IMG/VR virus record: IMGVR_UViG_3300006790_000046
Span: 1-38,194 of that record
Reading direction: 5' to 3' (one strand)
Length of the DNA: 38,194 nucleotides
Source of the DNA: a virus
A program made the position numbers and the translations under genes. The number at the start of each line of letters is the position of its first letter. Positions within the stretch are counted from its first letter, which is position 1. Positions 2,770 through 5,412 of this stretch are shown here, piece after piece. The notes under the pieces were generated by a model. The model searched no databases, was not told the origin of the DNA, and saw nothing but the letters and a program-made list of their open reading frames with translations.

Positions 2770-2940
2770 TCAGACGCTTTCGTTCCGAACGCCATAGACG
2801 CCCGCAGCAGTGAGGGCCGAAACGACCAGTTCGAGCACGACCGTATCGAGGCCGAGGATTTCGATTTCCAGATAGCGCAGTGCCATCAGGGCAGAGACGC
2901 CCGCCAGTGCAGCCACGAATTTCCGATATGGAGCGAGCAT
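2770..2940 (-). CDS. 56-residue putative holin
   Basis: A short ORF (MLAPYRKFVAALAGVSALMA onward) whose ATG at 2940 overlaps the endolysin stop as TGATG, so it is translationally coupled to the endolysin. It has a basic start, a first hydrophobic stretch (about 8-20) and a second one (about 30-50) ending in VYGVRNESV. This pattern is typical of very small phage holins of the kind that begin with 'YRKAIVA' and end with 'TALGVYGVPN'. Location immediately after the endolysin strongly supports a lysis function. Holin activity itself is inference. Confidence 0.7.
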   Translation of the reverse strand: MLAPYRKFVAALAGVSALMALRYLEIEILGLDTVVLELVVSALTAAGVYGVRNESV

Positions 2941-3530
2941 CAGCGTTCCTTTCCGAACAGCTTGAGGATTGCGGCGATGATTGAGGCCCAGAAACCGCCA
3001 CGCGGGGCTGCTGGAGCGGGTTTCGGGGTTGGACGGGCTGGCGTGTCCACGCCGTAGCCTTCGGCCTTCAGGAGGGCGTCGTAGCGCTTGGCGATGTCGG
3101 CAATCTCGGCCGCCTTGTCCTTGCCGTTGATGATGCGGCGCGCGTTGACGAAATCGGACTTCTGAAGCGTCATGTAGTCGGACAGCTTCTTGCCGGTGAA
3201 CCAGCCGTCCCGAGAGCCGACAACGAGGATTTCCGCCGCATACTTCGGCTCAAGCAGCTTCTTCGGGTTGTTGACGAAATCGACGCCCAACTCGCGGGTG
3301 GCGCGCTTGTAGTTCTCCAGCCAGGTTAGCTGGGCGTAGCCCATCCCGACGTAGGGGTAGTATTTCTTCGACCGCAGATACTTTTCGCCGCCATACTCGC
3401 GAACCGGCTTCATGGTTCGGGCGGTTTCCCACGCGGTTGTAGCCAAAACATATGCGGCTTGGTTTCTTAGAAGGCCATGCTTCTTGCAGGCGTCAATAAT
3501 CAGCCGAGTGTCGCCAATCTCTAGGTTCAA
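2940..3530 (-). CDS. Endolysin, GH19-like, with C-terminal hydrophobic tail and substituted 5' end
   Basis: A 196-residue peptidoglycan hydrolase. The core (about 8-160) contains a helix-rich glycoside hydrolase 19/lysozyme-like domain with the candidate catalytic Glu35 in TTAWETA and the GMGYAQLTW segment. A proline-rich linker (about 163-178) leads to a hydrophobic, basic tail (GGFWASIIAAILKLFGKER) that may hold the enzyme at the membrane. The start is TTG at 3530, with AGGAG eight bases upstream. The reading frame remains open further upstream, but homology begins exactly at this TTG. Codons 1-31 duplicate, in a different codon choice, the older start now stranded at 4021-4140 beyond the HNH gene. 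The first 31 codons are richer in A/T third positions than the rest of the gene. Confidence 0.8.
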   Translation of the reverse strand: MNLEIGDTRLIIDACKKHGLLRNQAAYVLATTAWETARTMKPVREYGGEKYLRSKKYYPYVGMGYAQLTWLENYKRATRELGVDFVNNPKKLLEPKYAAEILVVGSRDGWFTGKKLSDYMTLQKSDFVNARRIINGKDKAAEIADIAKRYDALLKAEGYGVDTPARPTPKPAPAAPRGGFWASIIAAILKLFGKER

Positions 3531-3580
3531 AAATCCGTCTCCTATTGATGCTGTCGCCCAACTCTGATAAGCATCTTCGG

Positions 3581-4072
3581 ATGAAGACGATAGAAGAGCG
3601 CCTGTGGGCGAAAGTTGAAGTGCGAGGTGAGGACGAATGCTGGCCTTGGTTAGGCTACAAGCATGCCAATAGTGGACATGGACAAATTGGTCGGGGCCGT
3701 CGAGGCGAAGGCCAAACCTACGTCCACATCGTTTCATGGGAGGTAGCGAACGGTGCCAAGGTTCCGGAAGGCATGTGCGTTTGCCATAGTTGCGACCACC
3801 CGCCATGCGTGAACCCGAAGCATCTGTTTCTTGGTTCGAAAGCGGACAACACGGCAGATATGGTGAAGAAGCGGCGTCATAAGTTTGGGCAAGACGCGCC
3901 TTGGGCTAGGCTTACCGATAGTGACATCCTTGCTATCCACCATCGTTACGAACAGAAGGCGACCCAGCAGGAAATCGCCCGCGAATTTAAGGTCTCTCGG
4001 TCCCTTGTGGGACTAATCCTTCAAGGGAAGCGCTGGCCACATTTAGCAGTCGCGAGGACGTATGCCGCCTGA
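3581..4072 (+). CDS. HNH homing endonuclease inserted at the endolysin 5' end
   Basis: A 163-residue HNH endonuclease from the ATG at 3581; in-frame starts at 3545 (TTG) or 3548 would add 11-12 residues, and the family usually begins near 'MKTIEERLWAKV'. The order ECWPW (19-23), H49, CHSCDH (68-73), CVNPKH (76-81) and LGSKADNTADM is characteristic of phage HNH enzymes of the HNH_3 kind. A C-terminal HTH (about 127-150, QQEIAREFKVSRSLVGLIL) would aid site recognition. It is on the strand opposite to the surrounding lysis genes and divergent from the endolysin. Its last codons (VARTYAA-stop) are read from the antisense strand of the endolysin remnant, so insertion supplied its stop codon. Base composition is lower in GC than the neighbours. 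Confidence 0.85.
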   Translation: MKTIEERLWAKVEVRGEDECWPWLGYKHANSGHGQIGRGRRGEGQTYVHIVSWEVANGAKVPEGMCVCHSCDHPPCVNPKHLFLGSKADNTADMVKKRRHKFGQDAPWARLTDSDILAIHHRYEQKATQQEIAREFKVSRSLVGLILQGKRWPHLAVARTYAA

Positions 4073-4140
4073 TTGCGCAGGAGCCCATGCCGCTTGCAGC
4101 ATTCGATGATCAGGCGTGTGTCGCCGAGCGCCAGGTTCAT
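4021..4140 (-). pseudogene. Truncated remnant of the original endolysin 5' end
   Basis: ATG at 4140 with a good RBS (AAGGAAG) opens a 39-codon frame. Its first 31 residues match residues 1-31 of the intact endolysin at 26 of 31 positions (by hand count), after which it runs into the antisense of the HNH gene (AKCGQRFP-stop). Nucleotide identity between the two copies is only about 70% (65 of 93), with most differences at synonymous positions. This is what is left of the start of the endolysin gene after the HNH element entered. The remnant could still make a 39-residue peptide, but no function is expected. Confidence 0.8.
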
Positions 4141-4215
4141 AGGCACTTCCTTTTTCAGTTGTGGGAGAAGCGCGTCAGCTTTTGGGTTGTCGTTAAAAGA
4201 ATGACGGCCTAAGAG

Positions 4216-4236: not shown

Positions 4237-5412
4237 ATGAAGAAGCTCGCAGCGGTGTTCGCCACCGTTATCGCCATTGTTGCTCTCGCGGGCTTCGCGA
4301 AACCTCAAATCATCAATGCCGGCGACTTTCTGGTTCGCCAGCCGCTTCTCAGCATCCGCGCCGAAATGGCAGCGATTACATCCGAGGTTTCGACCCTTCG
4401 AGCCGAGATGGCGGTTGCATTGGCCCCACCTCCGCCACCCGCCCCTATGCAAGTGCAAGAGGTTGCCGAACCGGCCGTGAGCGATGGGTGGGAACTGGTC
4501 ACTGATGACGCCCCATTCCGCCCCCGCGATGGGTCTTTCGTCGCGTCCTTCAAGGGCTACCTTTGGCTTGGCAATGGCTGGCCGGGTTCTTCCGACAACA
4601 TGCCGACTTCAATCTGGCGTTCCCGCGACGGCAAGGATTGGGAGCGTGTCGTTGACAATGCCCCGTGGAAGGGCCGGCACATCGGCAACTTTGTCGTCCT
4701 CAATGACCGCATGTACATGTACGGCGGCGACAACATGACCGACGTCTGGTCATCCGCCGATGGGATTAACTGGCAGCTCGAAATAGCAGAGGCACCGTGG
4801 GGCAAGCGCTATAACCCCTACATGGGCGCGTTCAACGGCAAGCTCTGGCTGATGGGCGGGCAGAACGAACACTGGACCGGCGCCTATAATGATGTCTGGT
4901 CTTCTGTGGATGGCAAGACGTGGGTGCGCGAGGTTGAGAACGCGCCGTGGCCGCGTCGTAGCCTAGTCTCCGGGTTCGCGGTTCACGACGGGCACATGTG
5001 GGTTATGGGCGGCGGAAGGAAGATACCCGACCCGCGCTGCAATGGATGCGGCCAGACCATCTATGACCTGAACGATGTCTGGAAATCCGCAAACGGCGTC
5101 GATTGGGAACTCGTCATTCCCCGCGCTGAATGGGCACCCCGAACGCATATGAGTGTGGTCGGCTACGACGGCAATCTTATCGTGACCGATGGCTCTGTCG
5201 GTACGCAGGCGGGCATGTCGAGCGAAGCATGGTTCTCGAAAGACGGTATCGAGTGGCACCCTATCGGCGGCATCCCTGACCAGAAGTTCAGCCCCCGCCA
5301 TGCATCAACGCTGGTTGAGCACGACGGGACGCTGTTTATGGTGACGGGCTATCTTCGCAACGATGTCTGGAAGCTGAACCCGGAAGCTCTTACCGTGCCT
5401 CCAACGCAGTGA
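4237..5412 (+). CDS. Secreted/anchored kelch-type beta-propeller protein
   Basis: A 391-residue protein with an N-terminal hydrophobic signal or anchor (1-22), a short coiled coil (about 40-60), a proline run (APPPPPAP, 63-70) and then a repeat domain. Five repeats carry a recurring 'DGxxWxxxxxxAPW' element (DGKDWERVVDNAPW, DGINWQLEIAEAPW, DGKTWVREVENAPW, NGVDWELVIPRAEW, DGIEWHPIG) alternating with kelch-like 'GYLWLGNG', 'RMYMYGGD', 'KLWLMGGQ', 'HMWVMGGG' strands, indicating a beta-propeller. It stands on the plus strand between lysis genes and the tail fibre, both minus, and its 3' end overlaps the tail fibre 3' end by 23 bp. This suggests an independently expressed accessory (moron-like) gene; an envelope or surface-binding role is inference. 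Confidence 0.7.
   Translation: MKKLAAVFATVIAIVALAGFAKPQIINAGDFLVRQPLLSIRAEMAAITSEVSTLRAEMAVALAPPPPPAPMQVQEVAEPAVSDGWELVTDDAPFRPRDGSFVASFKGYLWLGNGWPGSSDNMPTSIWRSRDGKDWERVVDNAPWKGRHIGNFVVLNDRMYMYGGDNMTDVWSSADGINWQLEIAEAPWGKRYNPYMGAFNGKLWLMGGQNEHWTGAYNDVWSSVDGKTWVREVENAPWPRRSLVSGFAVHDGHMWVMGGGRKIPDPRCNGCGQTIYDLNDVWKSANGVDWELVIPRAEWAPRTHMSVVGYDGNLIVTDGSVGTQAGMSSEAWFSKDGIEWHPIGGIPDQKFSPRHASTLVEHDGTLFMVTGYLRNDVWKLNPEALTVPPTQ

Follow-up and report, generated by a model that had tools for sequence, protein, structure and literature searches.

Organization of the endolysin locus

We analysed a 38,194-nucleotide stretch of viral DNA (IMG/VR record IMGVR_UViG_3300006790_000046), hereafter the window, in which an endolysin gene starts twice (Table 1). 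The open reading frames and the sequence place three elements flush against each other, namely a 33-codon remnant of an endolysin start, an HNH endonuclease gene, and an intact endolysin gene with a second, diverged start. The remnant reads MNLALGDTRLIIECCKRHGLLRNQAAYVLATAK from ATG 4140 and then continues into the HNH gene in antisense. The intact endolysin gene runs on the minus strand from TTG 3530 to 2940, begins with LNLEIGDTRLIIDACKKHGLLRNQAAYVLATTAWETARTM, and has an AGGAG motif 8 nt upstream of its start codon. The initial annotation, made from the sequence alone, had described these two starts, with the ribosome-binding site and the TTG codon, as we find them. The new start and the remnant form a direct repeat at the protein level (z = 32 against codon shuffles, the window being scored as L039). 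The endolysin matches the phrog_181 endolysin (5e-31) and phrog_29753, and its body matches Chitinase A among the solved structures (5e-4).

The break in the first copy, which had been placed at codon 31–32 after a remnant of 31 codons, is real; as to its exact position, codon 33/34 is the probable end of the remnant (GCT AAA TG, compared with ATAKWET in locus L021). The insertion point lies between the AYVLAT block and Glu35, both of which are strongly conserved, even though this conservation is overstated, some of the homologues having been picked by part of the motif. We found no sigma-70-like promoter for the HNH gene. Rfam gave no intron match between positions 2800 and 4500 even at E ≤ 5, and no group I intron structure was found around the HNH gene. 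Within the HNH gene, positions 3994–4018 of the plus strand matched a CRISPR repeat family of Rfam below the threshold, in a single copy, which was taken as chance.

Table 1. Features of the endolysin locus in the window
Feature	Position	Strand	Basis or remark
Endolysin body, GH19-like, codon 34 to stop, common to the putative native and the present gene	2940..3431	-	phrog_181, structure match
Replacement endolysin 5′ end, putatively imported (codons 1–33, TTG start)	3432..3530	-	Codon comparison, GC3, protein-level direct repeat
Spacer of 50 bp separating the divergent HNH and new endolysin starts	3531..3580	.	Contains AGGAG 3539–3543 (minus)
HNH endonuclease gene (HNH_3 domain and C-terminal helix-turn-helix)	3581..4072	+	Pfam, PHROG, alignment, C-terminal comparison
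Putative native endolysin 5′ end, displaced (remnant, codons 1–33)	4042..4140	-	Frame of 38 aa, then stop
RBS-like AGGAAG of the remnant	4146..4151	-	Sequence
Putative mobile unit: replacement 5′ end, spacer and HNH gene, ~611 bp	3432..4042	.	Window junctions; Jada/Emma1919 comparison

The HNH protein possesses an HNH_3 domain (PF13392, 3e-9, above the cut-off; phrog_1872, 1e-30) with the conserved Cys, His, and Asn positions, as C20, W23, H69, C71, C76, H81, and N90 are invariant in an alignment of 13 sequences. Because most homologues terminate at a W-x-H motif plus a few residues, the protein's own sequence comprises residues 1–154 (to position 4042), and the last nine codons (LAVARTYAA) and the stop codon are derived from the antisense of the remnant. 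This assignment places the end of the HNH gene flush with the junction.

Divergence and composition of the two starts

The two starts share 25 of the 30 residues after the first one (26 of 31 if TTG is read as Met), and 17 of the 25 shared residues are encoded by different codons. At the DNA level, 63 of 90 bases (70%) are identical and 27 differ. The hand count in the initial annotation is correct in all three figures. The foreign third-position style ascribed there to the new start is also borne out by GC3, for which the counts are small: 16/31 for the new start and 89/152 for the HNH gene, against 134/165 for the body and 25/31 for the remnant. The new start differs from the body (Fisher, p = 0.0009) and from the remnant (p = 0.03) but not from the HNH gene (p = 0.55), and the remnant fits the late genes of the phage (p = 0.68). 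The maximum-likelihood GC3 change point in the endolysin gene falls at codon 31, although codons 31–56 fit nearly equally well (permutation p = 0.02). By composition, the new start and the HNH gene look like a single import, and the remnant and the body look native.

We rejected the idea that the new start was specially recoded. Among 1021 pairs of homologous endolysin starts with 20–28 of 30 identical residues, the share of different codons averages 0.60 (s.d. 0.15), and 32% of the pairs reach 0.68; the 17 of 25 codons in the window are ordinary against the family mean of 60%. The term “recoded” overstates the case, since the divergence of the two starts is typical of pairs within the endolysin family. 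Neither start is near any known one, and an attempt to pick the native start by its similarity to homologues failed, both being equidistant from the best homologue (67 vs. 66 of 90 bases).

Relatives of the window phage

A second endolysin start was absent from all 44 fetched endolysin loci without an adjacent HNH gene, each of which has a single start, so that the arrangement with two copies is not a feature of HNH-free relatives. A degenerate DNA pattern for LLRNQxAYVLAT was doubled in one of 80 viral stretches, which is the window locus itself. The locus recurs in a single further record, a 92-kb contig (G001, also L002); comparison of the first 20 kb showed 100% identity, and this record is possibly not an independent one. 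Searches of viral contigs, GTDB genomes, phage records, and 398 genomes from a single related bacterial order yielded neither an HNH-less close relative nor a donor of the new start; the direction of change in the window is therefore read from composition and analogy. One candidate for a similar case, L136, was rejected, as its HNH gene lies downstream of an intact endolysin gene in an ordinary arrangement.

As for the surroundings, the flanks of the window in the 92-kb contig (L131, L132) carry an integrase, two cI-like repressors, and RecT- and SSB-like genes. The window represents the morphogenesis region of a temperate podovirus-like phage, which perhaps lies next to a second prophage or belongs to a chimeric contig. 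Between the tail fibre and endolysin genes, on the opposite strand (4237–5412, plus), a gene encodes a Kelch-like protein with a hydrophobic N-terminus, which among viral contigs recurs in the identical one only and is a candidate moron gene.

Gene-end duplicates at other HNH loci

We surveyed 208 distinct loci of related HNH genes, in which the translations of the 165 bases to either side were compared with each other and scored against codon-shuffled controls. Nine loci reached p ≤ 0.01, compared with 2.1 expected from the codon shuffles, and some of the nine are noise. On reading, at least seven cases besides the window prove to have one gene end duplicated, with the copies anchored at the start or stop codon and directly abutting the two ends of the HNH gene. 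Five concern 5′ ends. Two of these are in ssb genes, both cut near codon 20: L278 (MSKGFSYAIVEGGLGRDPQ and MSGYINVTVVGSLGRDPE) and L349 (MSVNKVILIGRLGKDPETRY, fused to the HNH N-terminus, and MASLNQCNFIGNVGKIETRY). The other three are L282, a glycosyltransferase gene (PF13692; MRFHVPALPSPPPI, fused to the HNH protein, and MRFHIPSLPGRPVL), L295 (MSATGHKLLDVVLE, fused to the HNH protein, and MSTGHRLLDAVLD), and L303, a signal-peptide-like gene with the new copy fused to the HNH C-terminus. Two concern 3′ ends, namely L071, a tail completion protein gene (PF11367; VYELWAQPTS and VNELWAQPTT, each followed by the stop), and L364 (DWPRIVEILNDGRIAVD and DWWPVIVPTLNDGRIVL, each likewise followed by the stop).

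In three loci, the HNH frame (L282, 2450–2944; L295, 2438–3034; L349, ~1940–2001) has as its N-terminus the start codon and first 14–20 codons of the displaced target gene, so that the translation signals of the target may drive the nuclease there. In L303 (2393–3217), the rebuilt target protein, a signal peptide-like segment with a peptidase-like domain, is fused in frame to the HNH C-terminus.

The duplicates in L280, L312, L313, L316, L271, and L372 were not convincing on reading. Flank repeats in L056–L082 are Ig-like repeats of tail genes rather than gene-end duplicates, and other putative flank repeats were dismissed as Arg-rich antisense frames. A convincing duplicate was absent from about 200 of the 208 loci and from 17 of the 18 named isolates tested, among which SALSA (p = 0.02) was counted as negative without detailed reading. 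In BUCT566, the HNH gene precedes ssb, but there is no remnant. Because so many loci and isolates are without a convincing duplicate, gene-end replacement is either one of several modes or leaves duplicates that decay fast.

A base-exact insertion in Gilsonvirus

Occupied and empty sites can be compared directly in Gilsonvirus, a group of Streptomyces phages. HNH gene 168 of Jada (flank duplicate z = 36.7) lies at a site that is also occupied in Forrest; no HNH gene is present there in Gilson, Emma1919, or other Gilsonvirus members. Left of the insertion, in gene 167 of Jada, both Jada and Forrest agree with Emma1919 over all 396 bases. These bases are followed by a new 30-codon end, a spacer, the HNH gene, and the native end. 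The new and native ends share 61 of 90 bases (29 differ) and 28 of 30 residues. The native end behind the HNH gene is identical to that of Emma1919 at 90 of 90 bases, and at 300 of 300 over 300 bases from the start of the remnant. The block of 613 bp has a single insertion point, with target DNA neither lost nor duplicated, and no intermediate between the empty and the occupied state was found among the sampled relatives. Seven HNH-less relatives carry a native-type end (79–90 of 90 bases). Since the uninterrupted gene is the rule among relatives, the sequence comparison identifies the insertion as the derived state at this site.

Kenrey, which is HNH-less (L503, 354–827), carries an end identical to the new end of Jada at 78 of 90 bases (87%) and to the remnant at 60 of 90. 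The imported end of Jada is thus a natural allele of the same phage group, and Kenrey may belong to the donor lineage or have lost the element itself. In other Gilsonvirus members (L497, 818–1066; L498, 817–1068; L500, 752–988), a different small ORF (MSQSTTFEQLPLFS...) overlaps the end of the same target gene, which marks the locus as an insertion hot spot.

Read in the orientation of the HNH gene, the order is identical in Jada and the window: gene body, new end, HNH gene, remnant. The direction of the target gene is opposite, the new end being 3′ in Jada and 5′ in the window. The mobile units are of similar size (613 bp and ~611 bp), and both HNH proteins end on GKRWPHLA before reading into the remnant.

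Proposed mechanism and alternative explanations

We consider it likely that the locus in the window is a homing element that replaces a gene end, consisting of an HNH gene and a diverged copy of the end of its target, here the 5′ end. The insertion into a once continuous endolysin gene is inferred from the composition, the relatives with a single start, and the Gilsonvirus case. In the best reading, the logic is that of the WHO elements of yeast, but HNH-based and in phages, with cutting and transfer as predicted steps. The HNH enzyme would cut uninterrupted endolysin alleles near codons 32–34, between the AYVLAT block and Glu35. The break would be repaired from a phage bearing the element, with the remnant and the gene body serving as the two homology arms, and the HNH gene would be copied in together with the new 33-codon start and its ribosome-binding site. 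The gene would be rebuilt from the new start and the old body, leaving the native start as a remnant beyond the HNH gene. Given a start with about 30% of its bases altered, the rebuilt gene would probably no longer be a substrate. The initial annotation had proposed an HNH element with a recoded 5′ end; insertion and replacement are supported, but special recoding is not, given a divergence ordinary for orthologues and the similarity of Jada's new end to the natural allele of Kenrey.

On balance, we also favour, with less assurance, the broader view that phage HNH genes of this family have repeatedly spread as elements combining a nuclease with a diverged 5′ or 3′ target end, which enter a coding sequence, need no splicing, keep the gene, and leave the old end as a remnant. 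The window would then be a 5′ case with an antisense nuclease.

The alternative that survives best, albeit an unlikely one, is mosaic recombination, in which recombination at the conserved YVLAT motif brought in the lysis module of a second phage, where an HNH gene adjoins the endolysin start, and the HNH gene is a passenger rather than the driver. It would suit a new start as divergent as any other family member, and HNH genes are reported to sit at boundaries of genetic exchange between phages (PMC10448857). However, the flush duplicates recur at unrelated genes, always with the HNH gene between copy and remnant, the two ssb cases have a site in common, and the flanks of the single insertion point in Gilsonvirus were not exchanged. 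Origin of the start from another phage, which the initial annotation had held against homing, is probably part of the history; it does not decide against homing, because a WHO-like element does exactly that.

Even less probable is an ectopic insertion of the HNH gene that was later repaired by any start from a relative, the copy and the HNH gene not being one travelling unit. Homing endonucleases have been reported to enter new sites and split genes, e.g., mobE of Aeh1 (PMC2988022). Against such a two-step origin, the copy and the HNH gene are of similar composition, and in Jada the copy, spacer, and HNH gene form one block that is absent from Emma1919 and Gilson, with the intermediate state missing among the sampled relatives.

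A tandem duplication of the endolysin start within the phage, followed by divergence or deliberate-looking recoding of one copy, would agree with very similar peptides and mostly synonymous changes, but it is highly implausible, as the two copies resemble other family members (best 66–67/90 bases) at least as much as they resemble each other (63/90) and the new start matches the HNH gene in composition. Group I introns often house HNH genes, but an intron or another RNA-level device joining the remnant to the body, with the second start being incidental, is just as hard to sustain, given the negative Rfam search, the antisense HNH gene, and the intact reading frame with its own ribosome-binding site and start.

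Comparison with known systems

WHO elements at the yeast FBA1 gene are described as replacing the 3′ end, with the displaced fragment serving as a homology arm and resistance arising from the allelic difference (Coughlan et al., 2020; PMC7282813). The initial annotation had drawn this comparison, and it is supported by the layout common to both: as in the Torulaspora and Lachancea elements, the nuclease gene is flanked on one side by an intact gene whose end has been replaced and on the other by a piece of the former end, in the window and, base-exactly, in the comparison of Jada with Emma1919 and Gilson. The WHO elements described are LAGLIDADG-based, target mainly one host gene (FBA1) at its 3′ end only, and form clusters of old elements (PMC7282813). 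Unlike them, the phage element is HNH-based, with many targets, both 5′ and 3′ ends, an antisense HNH gene in the window, and resistance as a prediction. By its sequence, it falls outside the WHO family, because the nuclease is of the HNH_3 type and not LAGLIDADG of the HO/WHO lineage.

Mobile ORFs (mORFs) with foreign C-termini have been described in fungal mitochondria, i.e., in atp6, atp9, cox2, and nad3 of Glomus and atp6 of Allomyces (PMC3630166; Paquin et al., 1994, cited there). As in the phage loci, an endonuclease ORF arrives with a foreign gene end, creates a hybrid gene, and displaces the native end (PMC3630166). The inserted ends have 64–81% DNA identity to the native end of a close relative, with nearly identical proteins (PMC3630166). 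The mORFs differ in being mitochondrial, of the LAGLIDADG or GIY-YIG type, and confined to C-terminal ends in the cases described (PMC3630166).

Free-standing phage homing endonucleases such as T4 seg and mob are likewise nuclease genes in phage DNA with repair-driven spread and co-conversion of flanks, but they are usually intergenic, and the account cited describes no displaced remnant with a replaced gene end (PMC2988022). In HEG islands and at exchange boundaries, HNH_3 nucleases also adjoin phage genes that move along with them, but the cargo consists of whole genes or operons, gene-end replacement not being among the events described there (Barth et al., 2023; PMC10448857). We found no paper on gene-end replacement by a phage homing gene in the open-access literature. 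The remark in the initial annotation that no phage example was known holds for that literature but not for public data, where we find further phage cases with 5′ and 3′ ends.

Biological implications

The logic of WHO elements and mORFs, known from yeast nuclei and fungal mitochondria, is hereby extended to phages, where the enzyme is of the HNH type and the gene ends concerned are both 5′ and 3′. Annotators should be aware that a short, truncated start of a gene next to an HNH gene is possibly the scar of homing. With Jada and Forrest carrying the element and Gilson and Emma1919 the empty site, described isolates make cutting, resistance, and drive directly testable. The proposed mechanism accounts for how a nuclease, with neither intron nor intein, can enter an essential gene at its conserved core. 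If the broader view of repeated spread is true, it would explain short, apparently recoded patches at gene ends in phage genomes, and it would give phage nucleases a third way, after introns and inteins, of residing within essential genes.
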